A stretch of 64,000 nucleotides of DNA from Chryseolinea soli (GTDB taxonomy: Bacteria > Bacteroidota > Bacteroidia > Cytophagales > Cyclobacteriaceae), in contig NZ_CP032382.1 of NCBI RefSeq assembly GCF_003589925.1, forward strand, positions 2,480,001-2,544,000. The letters run 5' to 3'. A program made the position numbers and the translations under genes. The notes beneath the pieces are model-generated. The model had not been told where the DNA came from, did no database searches, and was given only the letters and a program-made list of their open reading frames with translations. Positions within the stretch are counted from its first letter, which is position 1. Every line of letters begins with the position of its first letter. This document shows, in pieces, positions 2,501 to 14,281 of this stretch.

Positions 2501-3706
2501 TTAGTTATTCTCAAACTGCTTCTCCAACGGCGCGATCTTCTCCAAGTCATCCAACACCTTCCGGTCGATCGGCGTCTCCTTGATCACGTTATACTCATCC
2601 CAAAACTTTTTATTATACGGATAGTCCTGATACTGCAATCCATAATTCCGCATCTTCTCCGTCGTCCCGATCCGCGACAGCGGGTTCGGCAACACATGGT
2701 TGATCAGCAAATGCTGCACCAGCTCCGTCTCAAATTTGAATTGATCGGTAGACGCATCATACCACCGCTCCTTCGACGTCACGGTAATATAGTTGAGATA
2801 CATCTTCCCATCATACCGCTTAAAATCGATCGACTTCTTAAAGGAAACAAACTTGCTCACTAGGTTCCTCCGTTTCTCCTGGCTGTCGCCACTGATCTCG
2901 AACTCGAGGTGAAGAATAGAGTAGTCCGCCTTATTGATATACACCTGCAAGAAGAAGTCCTTCGTGTTCGACACCACATAAATTTCCTGGTCGTTATAGA
3001 ACGAATCTTTTTCCCGTACGATGTTGTTCAGAAATTCATCGTCGGCATCGATCTGGCGATACCGAATGTTGTTGTGGAGCAACAGGTCTTCCAACAGGTT
3101 GCGCTGCCCGAAATAGGTGGTGAACTTATTGTCATACCCCAGGCTCTTGCGCACCTCCACCAATTTCACGCGCTCGCGCAGTTTGGATTTGTTGCGCGGC
3201 TCTGCATAGTTCTCGTCAAATATTTTTACGGCCGCTTCCAGCAGGCTGATATAGGTGCCGCCTACTTTTTTCACGTCGCGGTAGAAGCCATCGAGCATGA
3301 AGGGTTGCATGGGAAAATTTTGTTCCACGCGGCTCAAGGCGATCTGCAGGATCTCGCCCCCGGTGAGCGAGTCGGTCACTACGATCTCCGGCAGCATGGT
3401 GGTGGACTTCGACATAAGGATCACCCGGCTTTCGTTTTCCAGCAACGACCAGATCGGGGCCTCAAAATTCTCGTAGCCGATCATGCTGATGACGAGCAGC
3501 TCGTTGCGGTATTCCGATGGAAAGTGAAAATCAAATTCCCCATTCAGGTTGGAAATCGTCCCGATAGGTTTGCCCTTGATGCCAATGGAGGCATAGGTTA
3601 AAGGCTCCTGTGTTTCATTGTCGAGCACCCGGGCGGAGAGGGTCAATTTTTGCCCGTAGGCGCTAAAAAACAGGAGACTTGCCGCGAAAAGGAGTAGTAC
3701 CCTCAT
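2501..3706 (-). CDS. Secreted CarboxypepD_reg-like domain protein
   Basis: A 401-residue exported protein. The N-terminus is a signal peptide (LLLFAASLLFFSAYG, residues 4-18). Residues about 21-105 form a CarboxypepD_reg-like beta-sandwich with the typical LSARVLDNETQEPLTYASIG opening and a GTISNLNGEFDF turn. The remaining 290 residues have no motif I recognise; similar proteins in Cytophagales are annotated only by the N-terminal domain. It has no plug or barrel signature of a TonB-dependent receptor. It is probably monocistronic: it ends at the hairpin-rich gap and is divergent from the LytS kinase. Molecular function unknown. Confidence 0.75.
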   Translation of the reverse strand: MRVLLLFAASLLFFSAYGQKLTLSARVLDNETQEPLTYASIGIKGKPIGTISNLNGEFDFHFPSEYRNELLVISMIGYENFEAPIWSLLENESRVILMSKSTTMLPEIVVTDSLTGGEILQIALSRVEQNFPMQPFMLDGFYRDVKKVGGTYISLLEAAVKIFDENYAEPRNKSKLRERVKLVEVRKSLGYDNKFTTYFGQRNLLEDLLLHNNIRYRQIDADDEFLNNIVREKDSFYNDQEIYVVSNTKDFFLQVYINKADYSILHLEFEISGDSQEKRRNLVSKFVSFKKSIDFKRYDGKMYLNYITVTSKERWYDASTDQFKFETELVQHLLINHVLPNPLSRIGTTEKMRNYGLQYQDYPYNKKFWDEYNVIKETPIDRKVLDDLEKIAPLEKQFENN

Positions 3707-3839
3707 GAAAAGTCCTCAAAGACGAAAGATGGCCATTTGTGCCCGTCTTTCAAACTCCCTGTAGGATATTCCCCGAAAATGAAGATTTACCCCCGTTAAT
3801 CTTTCTTTGAACGGGTTTACGTTTCATTCCGTAACTTTA

Positions 3840-4985
3840 ATGTACAATTTGTACCCCTTGAAATTTTTAGAGGACATACCGCGCATTTGGAAGAAAGCCT
3901 ATCTCTGGCTGTGTTTCTGGTATGCCATAAATTATGGTGTTGGAACGTTCATTGAATGGGAACTGAACACACCACACACCTACATTTTCTGGAATGCCCT
4001 CTACCTTTTTGAGGCCCTTTGCCTCCTCATCATCGGCATTTTTTTCTATTCCAATTGGCTGTTCCAGTTCAGCATCTACGTCCAGGTGGCCGGTCACGCC
4101 ATTGGGGCGACCCTGCACTTCCTGATCATGGGGTCGCTGTCGTATTACCTGGAGAATTATGTAGAAGGCTATATCGGCTGGGACGTGTGGCTGGCACACT
4201 TACAAGGGTTGTTGCGCTGGGAGGGGCTGCATTTTCACGATCAATACATCATCACCGTGGGGGTGTATTATGTGATCAGCTACTTCAAGGGTTTGCAGAA
4301 GCGGGAGGCCGAAAAAAGCGAGCTGTCGCTGAAGAACCGCGAAATGCAGATCTCGCTGCTGAAGTCGCAGATCAACCCTCATTTTTTGTTCAACACGCTC
4401 AACTCGATCAATACGCTGATCGGTTCCAGCAAGGAACAGGCCCGCAAAGTGATCACCCAGCTTTCCGACATCTTCCGCTATGCCCTGGATTCACATGGCG
4501 ACCAGATGGTGAAGCTTATCCACGAATTGGATTTTATCGACAACTATATTCGCATCCAGCAGGTCCGCTTTGGCGACCGCATGAAGTTTGTGAAGCAGGT
4601 GGATTTCACCTGTCTGGGGGTGGAAATCCCGCCCATGATCCTCCAGCCGCTGGTGGAGAACTCCGTAAAATACGGCATCGCCCCCAAAGACGATGGCGGC
4701 ACCATCATTCTCACCGTGAAGCGCTTTAACAATATGATCTTTTTTGAAGTTAAAGATGACGGGCTGGGCTCCAACGCCAAGAAGGTGATGGATGGCAGCT
4801 CCAGCGGCGTGGGCTTGAACAACACCGATCTGCGATTAAAGAGTATCTTCGGACCAGGTTCCGGGCTCCGCATACGGTCAAACGAGTGGGGATATTCCGT
4901 GAGCTTCTTCATCCCGTTTGAAGACGCCGAACAGCAAAACCAAGTATCATCAACCATAGACGAATTAAATAGCAAAGCAGTATGA
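3840..4985 (+). CDS. LytS-family sensor histidine kinase
   Basis: A 381-residue membrane histidine kinase. The ATG at 3840 was chosen over an in-frame TTG at 3807. About four transmembrane segments fill residues 20-150 with no extracellular sensor domain, then a short coiled coil leads to the His_kinase domain. The phospho-acceptor is His181 in QINPHFLFNTLNSINTLI. An N-box (MILQPLVENSVKYGI) and a G-box (GVGLNNTDLRLKSIFG) of the HATPase fold follow. The stop overlaps the start of the LytTR regulator by four bases (ATGA), so the two are translationally coupled and form a two-component pair. The signal sensed is unknown. Confidence 0.93.
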   Translation: MYNLYPLKFLEDIPRIWKKAYLWLCFWYAINYGVGTFIEWELNTPHTYIFWNALYLFEALCLLIIGIFFYSNWLFQFSIYVQVAGHAIGATLHFLIMGSLSYYLENYVEGYIGWDVWLAHLQGLLRWEGLHFHDQYIITVGVYYVISYFKGLQKREAEKSELSLKNREMQISLLKSQINPHFLFNTLNSINTLIGSSKEQARKVITQLSDIFRYALDSHGDQMVKLIHELDFIDNYIRIQQVRFGDRMKFVKQVDFTCLGVEIPPMILQPLVENSVKYGIAPKDDGGTIILTVKRFNNMIFFEVKDDGLGSNAKKVMDGSSSGVGLNNTDLRLKSIFGPGSGLRIRSNEWGYSVSFFIPFEDAEQQNQVSSTIDELNSKAV

Positions 4986-5725
4986 ACATAACCTGTGTTA
5001 TCGTAGACGACGAAAAGTTAGCACGTGATCTTCTCCAGGAATATTTGCAACAGATGCCCAACATCCAGGTGTTGGCCGAAGCCAGCAAGGGAAAGGACGC
5101 CGTGGAAACCATCGACAAGTTGAAACCCGACCTCGTGTTTCTCGACGTACAAATGCCCGGCATGACCGGCTTCGACGTGCTCGACGAGATTACGCACGAC
5201 CCATACGTTATTTTCTGTACGGCCTACGACCAGTACGCCATCAAAGCCTTCGAAAAAAATGCGGTCGACTATATTCTGAAGCCCCTGGACCAGGAGCGCT
5301 TCAAGCTCGGCGTGGAGCGGGCCATCAACCGCATGAAGGTGGAACAGAACAACGTGGGCGAACTGCTGCGCAACCTCAAGACCGAAAACAAGACCAGCTA
5401 CGATTCGCACATCTTCGTGCAAAAATCGGAGAAGCTGCTCAATCTTCCCGTGGAGGAAATTGTTTACCTGGAAGCTTCCGGCGACTACACCATCCTCACG
5501 ACAAAGAACGATCAGTTTGTCAGCTCTTCGGGTATCGGTAAACTGGAGGAGATTCTGAATCCGGAGACATTCATTCGCGTACACCGCAGTACCATCATCA
5601 ACATCAACAGCTTGAAAGAAATTGAAAAGCATTTCAACGGCGGTATGGTGGTGAAAATGCTAAACGGCAAGAGCTTCCCGGTGAGCCGGACGTATGCGAA
5701 ATTGATACGGAAGAAAGTAGTATAA
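4982..5725 (+). CDS. LytTR-family response regulator
   Basis: A 247-residue regulator. The N-terminal receiver (residues 1-120) has the acidic pair D9-D10, the phospho-acceptor Asp55 in LVFLDVQMPGM, and the conserved Lys in YILKPLD. The C-terminal LytTR domain (residues about 145-245) binds DNA through beta strands (VEEIVYLEASGDYT, FIRVHRSTIININ). It is coupled to the upstream LytS kinase by an ATGA overlap and is the presumed phosphotransfer partner. A strong rho-independent terminator at 5753 closes the pair, so this is a complete two-gene operon. Confidence 0.95.
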   Translation: MNITCVIVDDEKLARDLLQEYLQQMPNIQVLAEASKGKDAVETIDKLKPDLVFLDVQMPGMTGFDVLDEITHDPYVIFCTAYDQYAIKAFEKNAVDYILKPLDQERFKLGVERAINRMKVEQNNVGELLRNLKTENKTSYDSHIFVQKSEKLLNLPVEEIVYLEASGDYTILTTKNDQFVSSSGIGKLEEILNPETFIRVHRSTIININSLKEIEKHFNGGMVVKMLNGKSFPVSRTYAKLIRKKVV

Positions 5726-5752
5726 GATTTTTTGATTCAACCCAGATTGGAA

Positions 5753-5783
5753 GGGCTGTGCCGAGAGGTGCAGTCCTTTTTTT
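5753..5783 (+). terminator. Rho-independent terminator after the LytTR gene
   Basis: GGGCTGTGCC (5753-5762) pairs over 10 bp, including G-U pairs, with GGTGCAGTCC (5767-5776) around a GAGA tetraloop and is followed by seven T. It ends the LytS/LytTR transcript and lies four bases from the stop of the converging DUF4230 gene. Confidence 0.85.
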
Positions 5784-5786
5784 GAT

Positions 5787-6437
5787 TTATAATTTCTCGA
5801 TCCGCGCGCGTTCTACGTAATGGATCTCCACGTCTTTGCCATGTCCTTTCAAGATGGCCCGCAACTTGGTCTCCATTTCTGTCTGTGCTTTGCTCACAAA
5901 GACACCTTGCTCGGCATAGGCGCGGGCGTCGCGCGTGAAGGCATTCATGGCCTGCGAGCGGTCATCCTGGTGCACCCAGTTCCACAAGCCGTGCTCGTCT
6001 TGAAACTTCACGTCTGGCATCGGCTCCAGCGACAACAGTTGCGCGTGGGGGAGGGTGACAATAGCTTTTGTGTCGTCGATGGTGATGCTGAACCTTTTAT
6101 TTAGATCGAAGCCAGCCTTGGCTTCGAACGTTCCAGTGATGTCGATTTTTTTGGTGCTGCCCAGCATCGTATTCGTCCAGGCATAGTGATGTTGGAATTT
6201 CTGCGAAAGCGTGGCCACCTCCAGGATGGGAGTTTGTTGTTGCAGCACCACGGTGTTGTTCACGGTGACTTCCGGTGTCACGTGAAAGGCGGCGGCAATG
6301 TCGTGGCCAATTTGTTTTGCGCCGGCGTAGCTTTTCTCGGCCAGTCGAGTGGGAATAACCACCACGATAACATAGGCGGTAATAGCCACCGTGATCAGCA
6401 ACACGATGAGCAATATGATCTTTCGGTTGGAGAACAT
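5787..6437 (-). CDS. DUF4230 domain protein
   Basis: A 216-residue membrane-anchored protein. One transmembrane helix at residues about 6-28 (IILLIVLLITVAITAYVIVV) is followed by an extracytoplasmic domain resembling DUF4230, with the usual patterns of a VTLPHAQLLSLEP stretch and a C-terminal RAIL / VEIHYV segment. The role of this family is unknown. It lies 21 bp downstream of the anti-sigma/TonB fusion on the same strand and may share its transcript, but there is no functional evidence for a link. Confidence 0.75.
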   Translation of the reverse strand: MFSNRKIILLIVLLITVAITAYVIVVVIPTRLAEKSYAGAKQIGHDIAAAFHVTPEVTVNNTVVLQQQTPILEVATLSQKFQHHYAWTNTMLGSTKKIDITGTFEAKAGFDLNKRFSITIDDTKAIVTLPHAQLLSLEPMPDVKFQDEHGLWNWVHQDDRSQAMNAFTRDARAYAEQGVFVSKAQTEMETKLRAILKGHGKDVEIHYVERARIEKL

Positions 6438-6458
6438 GCGTGGGGTTTGGGTGGAGGA

Positions 6459-7901
6459 TTATTTTTTGGGTAACACAAATTTCATTCTCACTTTCACCCG
6501 GTCGCGCACGGCCTCGTTGGCACGTTTGGTAGGAAACCATTTGGGGCCTTGACGCACCAGGCGCATCACTTCCTCGTCGCATCCAAAGCCGATTCCTTTT
6601 ACTACGGAGAAGTCCGAAAGCAGTCCGGTTGATTCGACCGTAAATTGAATGGTCACCCGTCCTTCCACTTTATTTTCAATGGCTTGCTGCGGGTAGAGCA
6701 GATTTTTTTCAAGGTATTGTTTATAGGCGCGGCGTCCCCCTTCGGGGCTCGCGAGTTCCAGGGCTTCGGCGCGTTCCTCGTCTTTGTCGAAGGCCGGTTG
6801 ATAACCGGTCACCACCACCTCGCTGAGTTGGGATGCGTCCACATCCAATTGTACGTCTACTTTGGCTTTTTTAGTGTCGACCTCCTGGCTGGTGTAGCCA
6901 ATGTAGGTGAATGAGAGTTTGTCGTTTTCCTGGAGCGTGATCTGGTAATCACCCGTGGCGTCGGTAACGGTACCGATGCTGGAGCCTTTGATCATTACGT
7001 TCACACCGGGCAATCCCTCACCGTCTTCGCCGGTCACGCGCCCGGTCACTACTTTTGGTTTGGTCACTACTTTTGATTCCGTCACAGCCACGCCAGCCAT
7101 ACGGCCCTGCAAGGCTTTGGATAGAGCGATCGTTGAGTCGGCTTGTTGGTTTTTATTGGACGAAACGTATCCATCCAATGTAGAGGGGGCGGCCCGCTCA
7201 CCTTGCGCTCTCTTTCTTTTGACATCGGATTGCACCAGGGCATCGTCGGCTTGTTCCTTGAGAATGAATTGATCTGCTTTTTCCTCGGGCACTGTGGCAG
7301 GCGCACTTTGTGTTGCCGATTCGGTTTTTGCCACTTGTGCCTGCTCCTCAGTTTCAGTGGCCCTGTACTCTGCTCCACTGGCGTCACCGGATGCGGGGGC
7401 TTCCAAAACTATCGGTGAGGGTTTCTGGTTTTCGTCGGATAGCGAAAAGGTTAAATTTTCCTGAGATGGCGGAGCTTGCGCCTGTGAAGGTTTCTCCTCG
7501 GCCGGCGTAGGAGCCGGTTCTTTTTTTGGAGGAGCCGGTGTTATTTTTTTATCTAGGTCCAGGTCCTGGATCATCGACAAATCTTCCCTTTTGTTCCGTG
7601 AGGAGAGTTGAAAAATGATCACGGAGGCCACGGCCACAACGGCAAGCCCCGCGGCAATGCGCGCGCTCCATACCCAAAGCGAAACGACTTTCTTTTCTTC
7701 TTTTCTGACGATGCGTTGTTGGAGTGCACGCTGCAGATCAAGCAGATCGGCCTCGAATTCCGGAGGCTCGATTTCACTGGCGCCTTCCAGGGCATCGGCC
7801 AAAAAAGGATCGCTCAGCGCCTTTTTTTCGAGCGCGTGCATTTCTGCGGGGCTGAGTTCGCCTTTCAGGTATTTGTCGATATCGTTTTTCAGGTCAGCCA
7901 T
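6459..7901 (-). CDS. Anti-sigma-like / CarboxypepD_reg / TonB C-terminal fusion protein
   Basis: A 480-residue single-pass membrane protein. Residues 1-70 are a helical, cytoplasmic, anti-sigma-like region (DIDKYLKGELSPAEMHALEK). A transmembrane helix lies at about 78-98, then a long Pro/Ala/Glu/Gln linker to 255. Next come ALQGRMAGVAV (263-273), a CarboxypepD_reg-like domain (284-353), SEVVVTGY (360-367) and a TonB C-terminal domain (about 398-478). ALQGRMAGV and EVVVTGY closely resemble signatures at the N-terminus of SusC/RagA receptors, although the order is rearranged. The start overlaps the end of the sigma gene by eight bases, as expected for a sigma/anti-sigma pair. TonB_C normally contacts receptor TonB boxes, so the protein could link outer-membrane transport to sigma release; that is inference. 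Confidence 0.8.
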   Translation of the reverse strand: MADLKNDIDKYLKGELSPAEMHALEKKALSDPFLADALEGASEIEPPEFEADLLDLQRALQQRIVRKEEKKVVSLWVWSARIAAGLAVVAVASVIIFQLSSRNKREDLSMIQDLDLDKKITPAPPKKEPAPTPAEEKPSQAQAPPSQENLTFSLSDENQKPSPIVLEAPASGDASGAEYRATETEEQAQVAKTESATQSAPATVPEEKADQFILKEQADDALVQSDVKRKRAQGERAAPSTLDGYVSSNKNQQADSTIALSKALQGRMAGVAVTESKVVTKPKVVTGRVTGEDGEGLPGVNVMIKGSSIGTVTDATGDYQITLQENDKLSFTYIGYTSQEVDTKKAKVDVQLDVDASQLSEVVVTGYQPAFDKDEERAEALELASPEGGRRAYKQYLEKNLLYPQQAIENKVEGRVTIQFTVESTGLLSDFSVVKGIGFGCDEEVMRLVRQGPKWFPTKRANEAVRDRVKVRMKFVLPKK

Positions 7902-8457
7902 GTTGCTCCATGCAGAGCTTCAGGTTGCGTTTTCCGTTTTGAATATAACTCTTCACTTTGTTTGCATCGTAACCGGTCAGGTCGCCGATGTCTTTATAAC
8001 ACTTTTGCTGAAGATAAAACAACTCCACACACCGTTTCTGTTCAGCGGCCAGCGTGCCGATGCACTTTTCCAGTTGCGAAAGGTTGGCCTCCAGGTCCGG
8101 TTCCTCTTCCAGATGCAAAGCGGGGCTGTCTTCCATAAGAAAAGGCGAAATTTCTTCGAAATTCTTGCCTTTTCGGGCCCTGAGCTGCATCAGGCAGTGG
8201 TTTCGGGCCGTCACATAGAGCCAGCTCTTAAAATGAGCAACGTCGTGTTCCTTTAAACTGTTTACCAGCTTTTCGAATATCTGCATCACCGCATCGCGGC
8301 TTTCCTCCCTGTCTTTCAGGTACTTCAGACACACTCCGTAGGTGAGCGACATGTAGCGGTTATACAATTCCCCCAAAATATCCAGCGCGCCCGACACCTT
8401 ATAGTGTTGGATCAGCTCGGCGTCGGTCGACGCCTTATATTCTTTGGGAGAAAGCAT
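7894..8457 (-). CDS. ECF-type sigma-70 family RNA polymerase sigma factor
   Basis: A 187-residue sigma factor of ECF size. Region 2 spans residues about 25-95 (GVCLKYLKDREESRDAVMQI, then WLYVTARNHCLMQLR), and region 4 spans about 125-185 with a helix-turn-helix (CYKDIGDLTGYDANKVKSYI). Between them is an acidic linker (EISPFLMEDSPALHLEEEP). It overlaps the downstream anti-sigma/TonB fusion by eight bases and is divergent from the vWA protein gene starting at 8544, which may be a target. Regulon unknown. Confidence 0.92.
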   Translation of the reverse strand: MLSPKEYKASTDAELIQHYKVSGALDILGELYNRYMSLTYGVCLKYLKDREESRDAVMQIFEKLVNSLKEHDVAHFKSWLYVTARNHCLMQLRARKGKNFEEISPFLMEDSPALHLEEEPDLEANLSQLEKCIGTLAAEQKRCVELFYLQQKCYKDIGDLTGYDANKVKSYIQNGKRNLKLCMEQHG

Positions 8458-8543
8458 TTTTGAAAAATAGTAAAAAAATAATTGGATGCTTTATGGAATC
8501 GGAAGACCGGCATCATCTCAGTAGCAAACAAAATCATTTTGCT

Positions 8544-10466
8544 ATGAAAAAGTCAATCTGGATGCTCGTCGCGCTGTTCGTGGTCTCGGCCGGCTTTATG
8601 GCCCCACCCCAAACCCGCACCATTACTGGTAAGGTCACGGCCGCCACCGGGGGAAGTCCCATCATGGGCGCCACGGTTATATTGAAAGGCTCGGCCAGCG
8701 GAACCACGACTAATGTGGAAGGAAAGTATAGTATAGTGGTGCCGGTAAACGGCGGAACGTTGGTGGTTTCGTTTTTGGGCTACAAAGCTAAGGAGGTGAA
8801 GATTGGTTCGGAAAATATTCTAGACATTAAACTCGATGAGGATATTACCAAGTTACAGGAGCTCGTCGTGAAGGAAGACGAAAAGGCATTGCCGTCAGTT
8901 CATGTAGAGCAGGTGTTGCAAGGCCGGGCGGCGGGAGTACAGATCAGGGGCACGCGTTCGATGCATCGCAATAAGAGTGAAGTAGCGCCCTCGATGGGCT
9001 ATGTAGCTGCAGACTATGAAGAGCAACAATCCCAATGGAACACCGAAGAATACGACGCCATAAACGAAAATATTTTTCACGACGCGTTAAAGAATCCACT
9101 GTCCACTTTTTCGATCGATGTGGATGCCGCTTCCTACAACAACGTGCGTCGCTTCATCAACAATGGCCAGCGCCCTCCGAAAGACGCTGTGCGCATCGAG
9201 GAGATGATCAATTATTTCGACTACGACTATGATCAGCCAAAAGGCGACGACCCCTTTGCCGTGATCACCGAAATATCGACCGCACCCTGGAATGCCAAAC
9301 ACAAACTGGTGCACGTCGGATTGCAGGGAAAGAAAATCCCGACCGACAATCTGCCGCCCTCCAACCTCGTGTTCCTCATCGATGTGTCGGGCTCCATGGA
9401 CGAACCCAACAAGCTTCCGTTGCTGAAAACATCATTCAAAATGTTGGTGGAACAATTACGCGAACAAGATCACGTGGCCATCGTGGTATATGCTGGCGCA
9501 GCGGGATTGGTATTGGAACCCACCTCGGGCGCAGATAAGAAAACGATCATCGCAGCCCTCGACAATCTCCAGGCTGGCGGCTCGACGGCTGGCGGTGCCG
9601 GCATCCAATTGGCCTATGCCACGGCCAAAAAACATTTCAAGGCCGGCGGCAACAACCGCGTGATCCTGGCTACCGACGGCGACTTCAACATCGGCGAATC
9701 CAGCAATGCGTCCATGGAACGTTTGATCGAAGAGAAAAGAAAAGACGGCGTGTTCCTCACCGTGCTGGGCTTTGGCATGGGCAACTACAAAGATTCCAAA
9801 ATGGAGATCCTGTCCGACAAAGGCAATGGCAACTATGCTTACATCGACAACATCACCGAAGCGCGCAAGGTGCTGGTGAATGAATTTGGCGGCACGTTGT
9901 TTGCCATCGCTAAAGATGTGAAGCTTCAACTCGAGTTCAACCCTGCAAAAGTGAAAGCCTACCGTCTTATCGGCTATGAGAACCGCATGCTGAAAAGCGA
10001 AGACTTCAACAACGATAAAAAAGATGCCGGCGAATTGGGCTCAGGCCATACGGTCACTGCTCTTTATGAGATCATCCCCGTGGGCGTGGAGAGCGAGTTC
10101 TACAAAATAGACGATCTGAAATACCAAACTGCGCAGGTAAACAAGTCGGCCAACACTTCCAAAGAATTGCTGACCATCAAACTTCGCTATAAAAAACCTG
10201 ACGAAGACGTGAGCAAGCTCATCGTACACCCCCTGGTGGACGACAACACGCCACTGGCAAAGACCACTGACAATTTCCGCTGGTCGGCTTCGGTGGCTTC
10301 CTTCGGCATGCTGCTGCGCGAATCGGAATATGTCAATCATTTCACATACGACCAAGTGGTACAAATGGCACAGGGTGCCAGGGGCGAGGATAAGGAAGGG
10401 TACCGTATCGAGTTTATCAACATGGTGAAAGCCTTCGGATCAACGGCAAGCTCTGGCCGGCATTAG
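8544..10466 (+). CDS. vWA domain protein (YfbK-like) with CarboxypepD_reg N-terminus
   Basis: A 640-residue exported protein. The ATG at 8544 precedes a clear signal peptide (MKKSIWMLVALFVVSAGFMA); the upstream TTG in frame at 8460 is unlikely. Residues about 26-97 are a CarboxypepD_reg-like domain, followed by a short SusC-like plug signature VLQGRAAGVQIRG (124-136). Then come a YfbK-type N-terminal region (STFSIDVDAASYNNVRRFIN), a vWA domain with the metal-binding DVSGS (280-284) and TDGDFNIGE, and a C-terminal DUF3520-like region. It is divergent from the sigma gene and shares the receptor-like signature with the anti-sigma fusion, suggesting one system. YfbK homologues have no firmly known function. 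A terminator follows at 10530. Confidence 0.88.
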   Translation: MKKSIWMLVALFVVSAGFMAPPQTRTITGKVTAATGGSPIMGATVILKGSASGTTTNVEGKYSIVVPVNGGTLVVSFLGYKAKEVKIGSENILDIKLDEDITKLQELVVKEDEKALPSVHVEQVLQGRAAGVQIRGTRSMHRNKSEVAPSMGYVAADYEEQQSQWNTEEYDAINENIFHDALKNPLSTFSIDVDAASYNNVRRFINNGQRPPKDAVRIEEMINYFDYDYDQPKGDDPFAVITEISTAPWNAKHKLVHVGLQGKKIPTDNLPPSNLVFLIDVSGSMDEPNKLPLLKTSFKMLVEQLREQDHVAIVVYAGAAGLVLEPTSGADKKTIIAALDNLQAGGSTAGGAGIQLAYATAKKHFKAGGNNRVILATDGDFNIGESSNASMERLIEEKRKDGVFLTVLGFGMGNYKDSKMEILSDKGNGNYAYIDNITEARKVLVNEFGGTLFAIAKDVKLQLEFNPAKVKAYRLIGYENRMLKSEDFNNDKKDAGELGSGHTVTALYEIIPVGVESEFYKIDDLKYQTAQVNKSANTSKELLTIKLRYKKPDEDVSKLIVHPLVDDNTPLAKTTDNFRWSASVASFGMLLRESEYVNHFTYDQVVQMAQGARGEDKEGYRIEFINMVKAFGSTASSGRH

Positions 10467-10529
10467 AAGGCGCCATGTTGATTAAATAACTTACCGTTGC
10501 CCTAGCCTATCGTTGCCTGTAACACCCGG

Positions 10530-10570
10530 GCCTGTCTCAAAAGCGCGAGTTTTTTGGACAGGCTTTTTTT
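10530..10570 (+). terminator. Rho-independent terminator after the vWA gene
   Basis: GCCTGTC (10530-10536) pairs with GACAGGC (10557-10563); the stem extends inward through A-T pairs around an interior mismatch, and seven T follow. It separates the vWA gene from the glycosyltransferase starting at 10627. Confidence 0.8.
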
Positions 10571-10626
10571 ATGACGCTTGTTTTAATTGCCGTCAACGCG
10601 GACCTTTGCAGGCATTACTACACCCA

Positions 10627-11862
10627 ATGGTCAACATCAGCGCGGTCATCATCACGTTCAACGAAGAAAAAAGGATCGGCCGTTGCATCGACTCCGTGCG
10701 CAAAGTGGCCGACGAAGTGGTGGTCGTCGATTCATTCTCCCAAGACCGCACACGTGAAATATGCCTGGCGAAAGGCGTCACGTTCGTCGAACATCCCTTC
10801 ACGGGGTTTACGGCACAAAAGAAATTCTCCGTCACGCAAGCTGCCCACCATTATATTTTGGCGCTGGATGCGGATGAATACCTGTCGCCGGAACTGGAAC
10901 AGTCCATCCTCCAGATAAAATCAAACTGGACAGCCGATGCCTACGACTTCAACCGGCTGAATAGTTATGCCGGCAAATGGATAAAGTCCAGCGGTTGGTA
11001 TCCCGACCGCAAGATCCGGTTGTGGGACAGGCGCAAGGGCAATTGGGCCGGTGGCAAAGTCCACGAAACGGTGACGATGCAGTCCGGTGCAAAAAAGGCG
11101 ACGCTAAAAGGAGACCTGTTGCACGAGGCGTATCAAAATGCTTCACAGTTGATCCGCAAAATGCAACTGCAGTATGCCGACCTCTATGCCGAAGAACACG
11201 CCTTTCGCAAAACCGTCACGCCCTTCAAGATCTTCTATAAAACCGTGGCAGCATTCTTCAAAAGCTATGTCTTGAACGGCGGTATTTTTGATGGATACGA
11301 AGGCCTGCTCATCTCGGGTTCAAATGCCAACGGCGTATTCTATAAATATGCCAAGCTGCTCGAGCGCAACCGCTCACTTAAATTGTCACTCATCATCACC
11401 ACCAACGAAACCGCGGCACTTCAGAAAATTTTTCAAAGCCTCAAAACCCAAACCGTTTTGCCCGACGAAGTGGTCACTCAGAAATTGACCGGAGAACAGC
11501 GCGACGTCGTGAAGGCGTATCAGGAAAGTTTGGCGATCTCGTTTGTGCAATCTGATGATGATAACATGCTGAGCGGGGCCACGGAAGAATACGTTTTATG
11601 GATCGAAGGGCCGGCAGATCTTTCCGAAGAAACCATCGCCCTGCACAAACAATACGCCCGGAAAGACAAAGCCCTCGTCGACGGCCGTTCAAAAAAAGGA
11701 ACGATGATCTCTTTTTGGCGGGACGAAGCAGGCGCCGGAGCTCCGGACACAGCAAAGCCTTGGATCGAACATTTGAAACAGCGTTCTGTTTCCTTTTATG
11801 AATTGAAAAAAGGTGTGTGGGGCTACGGCGTCAACCGTACTTCTGCACCGGATATAAACTGA
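10627..11862 (+). CDS. Family 2 glycosyltransferase with a degenerate second GT domain
   Basis: A 411-residue cytoplasmic glycosyltransferase. The ATG at 10627 starts directly at the catalytic domain; the open frame to 10513 would cross the terminator and is rejected. Residues 1-235 resemble the WaaE-like GT2 group that adds sugars to lipopolysaccharide core, with SAVIITFNEEKRIGRCIDS, the VVVVDSFSQDRT nucleotide-binding strand and the metal-binding DADE (81-84). Residues about 250-400 look like a second GT2 domain in decay: SLIITTNETAALQ and LKTQTVLPDEVV match typical GT2 strands, but no second DxD is evident. It is followed after 13 bp by another transferase, suggesting a two-gene envelope-sugar operon. 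Donor and acceptor unknown. Confidence 0.85.
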   Translation: MVNISAVIITFNEEKRIGRCIDSVRKVADEVVVVDSFSQDRTREICLAKGVTFVEHPFTGFTAQKKFSVTQAAHHYILALDADEYLSPELEQSILQIKSNWTADAYDFNRLNSYAGKWIKSSGWYPDRKIRLWDRRKGNWAGGKVHETVTMQSGAKKATLKGDLLHEAYQNASQLIRKMQLQYADLYAEEHAFRKTVTPFKIFYKTVAAFFKSYVLNGGIFDGYEGLLISGSNANGVFYKYAKLLERNRSLKLSLIITTNETAALQKIFQSLKTQTVLPDEVVTQKLTGEQRDVVKAYQESLAISFVQSDDDNMLSGATEEYVLWIEGPADLSEETIALHKQYARKDKALVDGRSKKGTMISFWRDEAGAGAPDTAKPWIEHLKQRSVSFYELKKGVWGYGVNRTSAPDIN

Positions 11863-11875
11863 GCAAGCGAGAGCG

Positions 11876-12778
11876 ATGAATTTACTCTACATAACGTTTG
11901 GCCCCCGACTCGAGATCCACCACCAGGCAGCGTTCTCTATGCTGAGCTTCCTCACGCAAAAAGAGCACGTCCATTCCATAACCCTCATCACCGACGCGCC
12001 CGAATTCTACGGCCATGTCCGCGATCACATCGAATTGATTGCCATCACGCCCGACACTTTGAAGGAATGGCGGGGTCCGCATGATTTTTTCTGGCGCATC
12101 AAGATCAAAGCCCTCGAACACCTCGCCCTGAAGTTGGGTGAGAAGCCCATGGTTTATCTTGACACCGATACGTTTTTATTTGGCGACGGTGCCGCCCTGG
12201 CCAAGCGCCTGAGCACGGAATCTTTCATGCACGAGAATGAAGGTGCGCTGGCAACGCTCAAAACAAAAACAGAACGACGCATGGCCGCCCAAATCGTGGG
12301 CAAGGCATTTGGTGGTGTGACGATCCGCGGCGATCATGCCATGTGGAATGCCGGCGTGGTGGCGGTGCCCGGCACAAATAATTTGAAGGCAATTCAACTG
12401 GCGCTTGCCATTTGCGATGATATGTGCGCCGCCGATGTGGAGCGCCGGCTGGTAGAACAATTTGCCCTTGCGGTGGCGCTCGCCGAAAGTTATCCCTTGC
12501 ATGCCGGTGCCGATTTCATCGGACACTATTGGGGAAACAAGGCGGGATGGAACGAAGTGATCACAAAATTTTTTGTAGAAAGTTATCTACGAAAATCAAC
12601 CCTCGACAAAGAGCTCGAGGCCCTTCGCACATTCGACTTTTTCAGTGAGCCGCTGCGCACACGACGGAGCAGTGCACATGCCCGCTGGGTTAGGATGCTG
12701 GATGGTCTGTACCCACCCAAAGGGGTCGTTTACGTCACGCAACCGGAAGGGGATGTAAACCGGAAAAAAGGGAGATAA
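11876..12778 (+). CDS. Putative glycosyltransferase (GT-A type, DxD motif)
   Basis: A 300-residue protein with no signal or membrane segment. The N-terminal half has a GT-A-like alternating pattern (MNLLYITFGPR, VHSITLITDAPE) and a clear metal-binding motif in MVYLDTDTFLF at about residues 84-94. A later MWNAGVVAVPG segment resembles the acceptor-side strand of GT8-like enzymes. It directly follows the GT2 gene and probably acts in the same polysaccharide or LPS pathway. The family assignment rests on the DxD context; substrates cannot be read. Confidence 0.65.
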   Translation: MNLLYITFGPRLEIHHQAAFSMLSFLTQKEHVHSITLITDAPEFYGHVRDHIELIAITPDTLKEWRGPHDFFWRIKIKALEHLALKLGEKPMVYLDTDTFLFGDGAALAKRLSTESFMHENEGALATLKTKTERRMAAQIVGKAFGGVTIRGDHAMWNAGVVAVPGTNNLKAIQLALAICDDMCAADVERRLVEQFALAVALAESYPLHAGADFIGHYWGNKAGWNEVITKFFVESYLRKSTLDKELEALRTFDFFSEPLRTRRSSAHARWVRMLDGLYPPKGVVYVTQPEGDVNRKKGR

Positions 12779-12800
12779 ACGGAGGGTTTCGGCCACTGGA

Positions 12801-12832
12801 TTGCAGAATCGTATTTTTTAGGACTATCTTTT
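12801..12832 (+). promoter_or_regulatory. Candidate Bacteroidota promoter for the sigma/anti-sigma/gmk cluster
   Basis: TTG (12801-12803), a 21-base spacer, then TATCTTTT (12825-12832), one mismatch from TAnnTTTG. It lies 19 bp before the ATG of the sigma gene at 12851. Motif match only. Confidence 0.4.
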
Positions 12833-12850
12833 TACTATTTTTAGGCCCAC

Positions 12851-13441
12851 ATGGAACTAGAAGAGGCCCCGAAACAGCATTACTCAGAGGAGGAGAAACA
12901 AAACATCTTCAACAATGAGTTTATGCCCCATATACATTCAATGTACAACTTTGGTTACCGGCTCACGCTGGACCAGGACGATTCGAAAGACCTGGTGCAG
13001 GACACGTACCTGAAGGCCTATCGATTCATTGAATCTTTTCAGAAAGGAACTAACGCGAAGGCATGGCTGTTTCGAATTTTAAAAAACAGCTTCATTAATG
13101 ACTACCGGAAGAAGAGTAAGGAGCCTTCGAAGGTAGACTACCAGGAGGTTGAGACGTATTATAACTCCGAAGAGGTTGACCGGCAAATAACGCCCGATCT
13201 GCGTGTGGAGGCGCTGAAAGATATGATCGGCGATGAGATATCAAATGCCCTCAACGCGCTCGACGTAGATTTCAGAACTGTGATCATATTATGTGATCTC
13301 GAAGGTTTTAAATATGATGAGATGGCCAAGATACTGGACATCCCCATTGGAACCGTTCGAAGCCGGTTACACCGGGCAAGAAACTTACTGAAAGAAAAAT
13401 TAAGCGAGTACGCGAAACAAATGGGTTATAAAACTACCTGA
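12851..13441 (+). CDS. ECF sigma factor
   Basis: A 196-residue sigma-70 family member. Region 2 (residues about 28-95) shows HIHSMYNFGYRLTLDQDDSK and DLVQDTYLKAYRF; region 4 (about 130-185) contains LCDLEGFKYDEMAKILDIPI followed by GTVRSRLHRARNLL, the DNA-binding helix-turn-helix. The stop is three bases before the anti-sigma gene, which is a zinc-binding type. The pair is followed by gmk and nadD, apparently one transcriptional unit, an arrangement I recall from other Cytophagales. Inducing signal unknown. Confidence 0.93.
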   Translation: MELEEAPKQHYSEEEKQNIFNNEFMPHIHSMYNFGYRLTLDQDDSKDLVQDTYLKAYRFIESFQKGTNAKAWLFRILKNSFINDYRKKSKEPSKVDYQEVETYYNSEEVDRQITPDLRVEALKDMIGDEISNALNALDVDFRTVIILCDLEGFKYDEMAKILDIPIGTVRSRLHRARNLLKEKLSEYAKQMGYKTT

Positions 13442-13444
13442 ACC

Positions 13445-13711
13445 ATGAGTAATTCCGATCAGAGTCATATGAAGCAAGACTGTTCGAACAAACGAGAGTG
13501 TCTGGAGATGTTACAACTCATCCTGGATGGCGAAGCCACCCACGAACAGAAAGAAGAATTTCTCAAGCATCACCTCGACGAATGCTTGCCCTGCTATAAA
13601 AACTATCACCTTGAAATGAAGATCAAGGAGTTGCTCAAATCAAAATGCTGTGGCGGCCAGGCGCCTTCCGACCTGGTGGAGCAAATCAAAAGTAAAATCG
13701 GCGCAGCATAA
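13445..13711 (+). CDS. Zinc-binding anti-sigma factor (ZAS type)
   Basis: An 88-residue soluble protein. The HHLDECLPCYKNYH segment carries the HxxxCxxC signature of zinc-binding anti-sigma proteins, and there is a second Cys pair near the C-terminus (KSKCCGG). It has no transmembrane helix, so it would be a cytoplasmic, possibly redox-responsive, inhibitor of the sigma factor encoded three bases upstream. The partner and mechanism are inferred from position and family. Confidence 0.85.
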   Translation: MSNSDQSHMKQDCSNKRECLEMLQLILDGEATHEQKEEFLKHHLDECLPCYKNYHLEMKIKELLKSKCCGGQAPSDLVEQIKSKIGAA

Positions 13712-13717
13712 TTCCGG

Positions 13718-14281
13718 ATGGCAGGCAAAGCACTCATTTTTTCAGCGCCCTCCGGTTCCGGAAAAACGACAATCGTCAAACATCTTCTTGAAAGCAACCC
13801 CACCCTCGGGTTCTCCATCTCCGCGTCCACACGCGACAAACGGGGACGGACCGAATCGCACGGAAAAGATTATTATTTTCTCACGCCCGAAGAATTCAAA
13901 CACAAGATCGACGCCGATGAATTTATCGAGTGGGAAGAAGTCTACGCCGGCAATTTCTATGGCACCCTCAAGTCCGAGATCGACCGCATCTGGGCCGCGG
14001 GCAAAGACGTGATCTTCGACGTGGACGTGAAAGGCGGATTGAATCTCAAAAAATATTTCGGCGACAAAGCGCTCGCCATCTTTGTTAAAGTGCCATCCAT
14101 CGAAGTGCTCAAGGCCCGCTTGAACGATCGCGGCACCGAAAGCGAAGAAAGCCTCTCACGCCGGCTCTTCAAAGCCAACTTCGAAATGTCGTTTCAGGAT
14201 CAGTTCGATGTCGTGCTCGTCAACGAGCATCTGAATACATCCCTGGCCGAAGCCCAGCGACTGTACGACAACTTCCGCTAG
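13718..14281 (+). CDS. gmk: Guanylate kinase
   Basis: A 187-residue cytosolic enzyme converting GMP and ATP to GDP and ADP. The P-loop is in [18 protein letters not shown] (residues 7-24). The GMP-binding region includes [20 protein letters not shown] and [16 protein letters not shown], both standard for the family. Length is normal. It lies six bases after the anti-sigma gene. Confidence 0.97.

Follow-up and report, generated by a model that had tools for sequence, protein, structure and literature searches.

A predicted Bacteroidota envelope sigma/anti-sigma system with a receptor-derived sensing arm and a motif-defined regulon in Chryseolinea soli

We analysed a stretch of 64,000 nucleotides (the window; positions 2480001-2544000 of the 8.24-Mb genome of Chryseolinea soli) that holds a gene for an extracytoplasmic function (ECF) sigma factor, the gene of a fusion protein adjacent to it and a divergent gene for a von Willebrand factor A (vWA) protein. 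In the fusion protein, a predicted anti-sigma-like domain (N-domain) is joined through one membrane helix to a periplasmic arm with an N-terminal extension (NTE) of the SusC receptor type, a TonB box and a TonB C-terminal domain. On the basis of gene structure, domain matches, linkage, a promoter-like motif and the gene content behind this motif, we read the module as a Bacteroidota envelope sigma/anti-sigma system with an NTE/box/TonB sensing arm and a motif-defined regulon, and we give this reading a probability of about 0.6. An adjacent, recognised class I anti-sigma accompanies 6% of Bacteroidota ECF sigma factors versus 32% over all phyla, according to PMC7406223, and PMC7782687 treats the function of the SusC-receptor NTE as an open question. 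The module offers a candidate anti-sigma family, a motif from which its regulon can be predicted and a group of proteins that carry NTE and TonB box without being receptors, and it joins two questions, namely the roles of the NTE and TonB box outside receptors and the sensing of envelope state in Bacteroidota.

Linkage and architecture of the sigma factor and the fusion protein

The sigma gene (7894-8457, minus strand) encodes 187 amino acids (aa). In Pfam and NCBIfam profile searches, Sigma70_r2 (PF04542, 39.5 bits) and Sigma70_r4_2 (PF08281, 33.0 bits) both scored over their cut-offs, region 3 was not listed, and the ECF superfamily model TIGR02937 reached 76.1 bits against a cut-off of 42.9; by these matches to region 2, region 4 and the superfamily model, the product is an ECF sigma factor. 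The fusion gene (6459-7901, minus strand; 480 aa), delineated from the open reading frame, profile searches and alignment, overlaps the sigma gene by 8 bases. A first-pass annotation, made from the sequence alone, had described this overlap and, in the fusion protein, ALQGRMAGV, a CarboxypepD_reg domain, EVVVTGY and a TonB domain, and all of these were confirmed in place.

A search with the fusion protein gave 1571 homologues at E<=1e-5, and among the 120 listed the nearest named ones were Chryseolinea and Ohtaekwangia proteins. For gene neighbourhoods, genome contigs were scanned for loci encoding fusion homologues, and the best 80 of the 129 found were kept; by record title they include loci of Chryseolinea, Ohtaekwangia, Cyclobacteriaceae, Mucilaginibacter, Desertivirga, Flavihumibacter, Saprospiraceae and a metagenome-assembled genome of Prevotellaceae. 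Of the 80, 24 had no N-domain match, and 56 remain. The sigma gene stands immediately before the fusion gene in all 56 loci, with a gap of -25 to +16 (some gene ends being set by alignment), and when start codons are picked by script the identical 8-base overlap recurs in 39 of them. In 37 of the 56 there is a divergent vWA gene, which lies within 300 bp of the sigma start in 35, the exceptions being L061 (1.9 kb) and L045 (broken frame), where L and G handles denote our loci and genomes. Among the 19 loci without a vWA gene, 17 were inspected, and in several the genes flanking the window's vWA gene (a glycosyltransferase gene; a cluster of sigma and gmk-like genes) come directly next while the promoter-like motif described below is retained, which suggests loss of vWA. 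The pairing of sigma and fusion proposed in the first pass was thus borne out, and a chance grouping of unrelated genes, in favour of which we found nothing, is refuted by these counts and has a negligible probability. From this linkage and the weak fold matches given below, the fusion proteins may constitute a candidate anti-sigma family present in several Bacteroidota families. At one homologue locus, L042, the NTE and TonB parts were found with neither an N-domain nor a sigma match.

In an alignment of the window protein with 29 of the 120 listed homologues (n=30), conservation extends over the first ~100 residues and returns in the NTE, the box and the TonB C-terminal domain, with residues ~110-275 variable; box and TonB domain contribute some of the best-conserved columns, and the N-domain ranks among the best-conserved stretches. 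Two further alignments comprised 31 and 26 chosen rows, and the box count given below comes from the latter. The N-domain (residues 1-70; 7692-7901, minus strand) is predicted to be cytoplasmic from alignment, structure model and profile. Class I anti-sigma N-domains are three-helix bundles with a fourth helix. The model of this domain has four helices (2-12, 18-29, 32-41 and 46-69; mean pLDDT 81.8). When it was compared by Foldseek, 6 of the first 11 matches were ECF anti-sigma domains, among them those of RsiW, RslA and the SigK anti-sigma, but these matches are weak (E 4-8). No anti-sigma family was listed at E<=1 for the fusion protein in Pfam or NCBIfam, and we therefore do not claim class I membership on sequence, only that the domain may work like one. 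A search of Protein Data Bank (PDB) sequences with a profile of the N-domain returned four matches at E<=10, none of them an anti-sigma. Residues 1-110 contain no cysteine and hence no zinc site. The anti-sigma-like start proposed earlier therefore stands as regards linkage, the four-helix model and weak structural matches, and not as regards a curated profile.

The single transmembrane helix (residues ~79-100; 7602-7667, minus strand), assigned from sequence and model, contains no histidine, as in 53 of 56 fusions tested, the window fusion included. Because of this, the fusion is probably not a motor-driven TonB, and we accordingly read it as an anti-sigma with TonB and receptor parts as its sensing arm. 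It is very unlikely, in our view, that the fusion chiefly acts as a functional TonB that energizes NTE proteins, with the N-domain reporting ExbB/ExbD motor activity to the sigma factor. Such a function would suit the genuine TonB C-terminal domain and the suggestion, made in PMC7782687, that the NTE confers TonB specificity; it is at odds with the missing helix histidine, an SHLS motif being described for TonB/TolA in PMC12204202, and no ExbB- or ExbD-like gene was seen among the open reading frames of 3000-14000, which were inspected by eye and not by profile search.

From the helix to the arm, both encoded on the minus strand like the rest of the protein, runs a variable spacer rich in Ala, Glu, Ser, Gln and Pro (residues ~106-275; 7077-7586), defined by alignment. 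The NTE (residues 285-364; 6810-7049) matches CarbopepD_reg_2 (PF13715) with 60.8 bits against a cut-off of 32.2; the first 87 positions of the SusC model TIGR04056 match residues 284-368 with 92.6 bits, far below the whole-protein cut-off of 368; and in structure comparison the domain resembles the solved NTE of SusCdex (9hfj; E 1.3e-6, TMt 0.89). The sequence EVVVTGY (residues 361-367; 6801-6821), predicted by the model to be flexible, can be compared with the TonB box of Bt1763, given as 81-VDEVVV-86 or 82-DEVVVTG-88 in PMC7782687. Fusion proteins of >300 aa (n=55) or >150 aa (n=56) and vWA proteins of >500 aa (n=36) were used in the motif tests; a box of the form L-x-E-[VI]-V is present in 25 of the 26 chosen fusion rows, and 45 of 55 fusions fit a less strict version of the box. 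The TonB C-terminal domain (residues 400-477; 6471-6704) matches TonB_C with 54.6 bits (cut-off 24.6) and is similar to 6i97_D, a 90-residue chain from a FoxA/TonB C-terminal complex (TMt 0.72). The Plug model PF07715 was unlisted at E<=1 in Pfam for both the fusion and the vWA protein, and barrel families were likewise unlisted, so that the receptor N-terminal parts of these proteins are the NTE and the TonB box. The first-pass picture of receptor N-terminal parts on a TonB-like arm, with a barrel in neither protein, agrees with these profile and structure matches. Pairing of the fusion's own TonB box with its own TonB domain in cis was considered and found no support in the structure model.

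ALQGRMAGV (residues 263-271; 7089-7115), which resembles the start of the SusC plug, lies ahead of the NTE and is not widely conserved. LQGR-type motifs occur in 7 of 55 fusions (window included; 0.04 expected from shuffles), in 11 of the 120 listed homologues and in 4 of 36 vWA proteins (0.01 from shuffles; a looser pattern in 8 of 36 versus 0.02). We have therefore rejected LQGR as a general defining motif and retain it as a recurring minority feature, above chance. In SusC, the LQGR-type plug start comes after the TonB box; the motif comes before the NTE in the fusion and after the box in the vWA protein, and the order of box and then plug-start-like motif is seen also in L188. Of the short motifs that had been called hallmarks of the SusC N-terminus, the box thus proved conserved and LQGR did not. 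As side matches, fusion residues 284-367 and vWA-frame residues 29-149 weakly match a model of BamP, a beta-barrel-assembly protein, and chain 9n2d_E of the F. johnsoniae beta-barrel-assembly (BAM) complex is among the structure matches.

Promoter-like motif and predicted regulon

When upstream regions were compared side by side, we found a two-part element pointing from the sigma gene towards the vWA gene. In the window, this conserved promoter-like motif reads TATGGAAT-N14-CATCTCA (8492-8520, plus strand), which is the sole exact match there, and the vWA ATG lies 52 nt after its start. Scored as TATGGAAW-N14-CATCYYA, and with <=2 mismatches allowed, the motif is found in 33 of the 37 loci that have vWA and in 13 of the 19 that lack it, versus 3 of 740 shuffles; on the opposite strand it was found in 0 of 56 loci at <=3 mismatches. 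The GGAA within it is similar to the -35 element of ECF promoters, and the motif, being aimed at vWA, supports the earlier proposal that the vWA protein is a regulated partner as a prediction from sequence. On the sigma side, TAnnTTG-like boxes seen by eye near the start codon resemble the TAnnTTTG box of the Flavobacterium main sigma factor, as given in PMC9723704.

The exact motif occurs 40 times in 20 of 44 related genomes (own genome included), versus 2 for a reversed control. No site was found in the 10 of these 44 genomes that have no N-domain match (E<=0.01); 4 of 11 genomes with intermediate N-domain E-values have a site; and at least one is present in 16 of 23 genomes with E<1e-9, or in 14 of 23 without counting sites inside sigma genes. 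In a phylum sample of 247 genomes there were 26 sites versus 4 for the control, and the N-domain was found at E<1e-7 in 9 of 13 genomes with a site versus 4 of 16 without, a comparison of 29 genomes in which those without sites were hand-chosen from many and the 1e-7 cut-off was set after seeing the values.

These distributions bear on the alternative, which we regard as unlikely, that another regulator or sigma factor reads the motif and the neighbouring pair controls other genes. Retention of the motif beside sigma in the 13 vWA-less loci makes a role beyond vWA expression possible, and Flavobacterium ECF factors may share sites, according to PMC9723704; the absence of sites from the 10 genomes without N-domain match, together with the similar distance between motif and this sigma gene in most loci, argues for the neighbouring sigma factor as the reader. 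The vWA-less loci that keep the motif with 0-1 mismatches beside sigma are L026, L027, L031, L039, L040, L047, L049, L050 and L052.

Of the 40 exact sites, 29 are followed, 33-75 nt from where the motif begins, by an ATG frame of >=100 aa; for 27 of these the distance is 43-59 nt. PF13715 is present in 20 of these 29 genes, or in 13 of 22 when the vWA genes that defined the motif are excluded; the background in the own genome is 126 PF13715 matches in 8.2 Mb. The 20 NTE targets are 7 vWA proteins (that of G002 identified via tblastn), 3 DUF4139/4140 proteins, 3 alpha-2-macroglobulins (MG2, A2M_BRD), 3 SusC-like proteins of 957-996 aa, named from size and layout with no Plug or barrel family listed, and 4 small proteins. 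The 9 targets without PF13715 are 2 TED/SQHop-like, a SIMPL, an NQR2-like and a penicillinase-repressor-like protein and 4 small proteins without Pfam match. The other 11 sites have no start codon at 33-75 nt: four (L176, L199, L207 and the second of the two in L206) fall within the sigma gene, which we take as coincidence; that of L180 adjoins a vWA gene, the first ATG having been picked at +212; and those of L179, L181, L194, L195, L204 and L205 are unexplained or due to chance.

The own genome has three exact copies of the motif: one ahead of vWA, one ahead of the gene of a 628-aa DUF4140/DUF4139 protein (MuiA-like; L142) with an inserted NTE and the box LSEVVVMAYGY, and one ahead of that of a 241-aa NTE protein (L143). 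At L146, a one-mismatch motif precedes the gene of a 956-aa protein with an NTE at its start. Two further matches, in L144 and L145 (1 and 2 mismatches), were discounted as lying inside genes, and the near-match at an alpha-2-macroglobulin gene (L208) has a 13-nt spacer, was seen by eye only and has 5 mismatches to the scored pattern. Box-like stretches follow the NTE in the targets L142, L184, L188 and L223 and in vWA. Alpha-2-macroglobulins with an NTE stand behind the motif at L182, L184 and L188, and in L184 and L188 a box-like and a plug-start-like motif come next.

In the phylum sample, 9 of 21 new sites have a start codon at promoter distance, and the other 12 do not. PF13715 is carried by 4 of the 9 targets (two vWA-NTE, one VIT-NTE-Plug and one MG2-NTE); the other five are a VIT/DUF2135 protein without NTE, a TED-like, a DUF4349 and an OEP protein and one frame within another frame (not Pfam-scanned). 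The VIT protein with NTE (L223:322-3981, behind the motif) has TonB-box-like stretches, a near-full-length Plug match and no barrel family.

Since 20 of 29 target genes carry the same NTE, the sensor and its predicted targets share a receptor-derived handle, and the shared motif suggests that this gene switch, which is widespread in bacteria of soil and water, turns on secreted envelope proteins, many of them with this handle. From the theme of the targets (vWA/VIT, macroglobulin, SusC-like) we infer a role in envelope surveillance or protection. YfbK-type vWA, DUF4139/4140 and bacterial alpha-2-macroglobulin proteins would thus gain a common regulatory context.

Proposed mechanism and comparison with known systems

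In the sigma/anti-sigma system that we propose, the N-domain would hold the ECF sigma factor at the inner membrane, and the long spacer would lead from the membrane to the periplasmic NTE, the free TonB box and the TonB domain. From what is known of these families, the N-domain is expected to act as an anti-sigma and the TonB domain to bind TonB boxes. Without motor energy, the TonB domain would most likely bind TonB boxes or NTEs of outer-membrane and periplasmic proteins, so that the arm could report the state or load of receptor-type proteins, and a change would release the sigma factor. The freed sigma factor would read TATGGAAW-N14-CATCYYA and turn on the divergent vWA gene and distant genes for MuiA-like DUF4139/4140, alpha-2-macroglobulin, SusC-like and small NTE proteins, and the NTE-bearing products, several with a box-like stretch, might in turn attach to this arm, which would complete a feedback loop. 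A more specific form, which we put forward tentatively and hold to be rather doubtful, is a TonB-box homeostat in which the TonB domain of the anti-sigma gauges free envelope proteins with NTE and TonB box and controls a regulon tagged with the same NTE and box (vWA, alpha-2-macroglobulin, MuiA-like, VIT and SusC-like proteins). If this is true, sensor, input and output share one receptor-derived adaptor.

The closest relatives in layout are the Dma/Das pairs, likewise of Bacteroidota (Bacteroides and Phocaeicola), in which a sigma gene lies beside that of a long anti-sigma with an N-domain, one helix, a disordered tether and a C-terminal beta-barrel (PMC13088901). The sigma partners of Dma belong to group ECF21. 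A similar barrel-bearing pair of P. vulgatus is tied by its authors to envelope stress (PMC9308784). On this model, the same sigma/anti-sigma pair and regulon could be served by an arm that is merely an outer-membrane tether spanning the periplasm, the signal being mechanical or envelope damage. The long, variable spacer would suit such a tether, and the Dma arm reaches the outer membrane, as that of the fusion possibly does. Where Dma ends in a barrel, however, the fusion ends in a TonB domain after NTE and box, the conservation of box and TonB domain exceeds the needs of a plain anchor, and the NTE is common to most predicted targets. We judge the tether improbable on balance, yet a serious competitor. 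The reported effects of Dma are on outer-membrane vesicles and polysaccharide utilization loci, whereas the predicted targets of the fusion system are largely NTE proteins.

With FecI/FecR/FecA, the module shares an ECF sigma factor, a membrane anti-sigma and TonB-box and receptor parts. In Fec-type signalling, receptor, anti-sigma and TonB are separate proteins, and an STN signalling domain sits on the receptor, whereas the anti-sigma-like fusion unites receptor and TonB parts in its own chain. The Pfam and NCBIfam scans listed neither a FecR nor an STN domain for the sigma, fusion or vWA protein, a distant receptor not being sought; the STN domain is treated in PMC7782687. The order of NTE and then TonB box is that of SusC/RagA, but the fusion and vWA proteins have no Plug match or barrel family. 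As in TonB transducers, TonB_C scores over its cut-off and the fold matches solved TonB C-terminal domains; unlike them, the fusion has an anti-sigma-like N-domain before the helix, no helix histidine, and NTE and box within the same chain. The four-helix N-domain model, one membrane helix and an adjacent ECF gene recall the class I anti-sigmas RseA and RsiW, whereas the matches are weak, no curated family or zinc-site cysteine is present and the periplasmic part is wholly different. Our searches of the open-licence PMC literature listed no paper that describes this motif or an anti-sigma carrying both an NTE and a TonB domain.

The vWA protein and neighbouring genes

The vWA gene (8544-10466, plus strand, as are its parts below) encodes a secreted YfbK-type protein of 640 aa from its ATG and is the predicted sigma target. 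The position of the promoter-like motif (8492-8520) makes ATG 8544, after which a signal peptide was read from the sequence, the most likely start in place of TTG 8460; 86 bp then separate the vWA and sigma starts. The protein has an NTE (CarbopepD_reg_2; 8622-8870), TIGR04056 matching vWA-frame residues 53-137 with 79.7 bits, a TonB-box-like LQELVV (8853-8870), the plug-start-like VLQGRAAGVQ (8913-8942; from ~residue 152 of the vWA frame) and a core of vWF_A, VWA and YfbK_C (9036-10433; Pfam). The CarboxypepD_reg domain and VLQGRAAGVQ described for this protein in the first pass were thereby confirmed. E. coli YfbK has the same three domains, the YfbK_C model matching it also as a control, but the window protein adds NTE and box and sits behind a promoter-like motif by an ECF gene.

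A second YfbK gene of the own genome (L123:4409-5962), with a lipoprotein-like start and without NTE, is divergent from another ECF-like sigma gene and an N-domain/trypsin-like fusion (L123:4409-8099, G000:C1:1762000-1774000). Over 482 residues, the core of this vWA protein shares 92.5% identity with that of the window protein, and the two N-termini differ: the NTE is present beside the NTE/TonB partner and absent beside the protease partner, which suggests, as far as sequence tells, that the vWA N-terminus sets the partnership. The promoter-like motif is absent upstream of the second vWA gene, so that not every YfbK gene is a target.

Immediately downstream of the fusion gene lies the gene of a DUF4230 protein (5787-6437, minus strand). 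Further away are a tandem of histidine-kinase-like and LytTR-like response-regulator genes (3807-5725, plus strand), read from the sequence, and a gene (2501-3706, minus strand) whose product of 401 aa likewise contains an NTE (PF13715, 50.8 bits) and, as a box-like sequence, PEIVVT. On the other side, inspection by eye showed another sigma-70-like gene followed by that of an 88-aa, anti-sigma-like CxxC protein (12851-13711, plus strand) beside a guanylate-kinase-like gene, and a like gene order was seen by eye in L015, L021 and L039.

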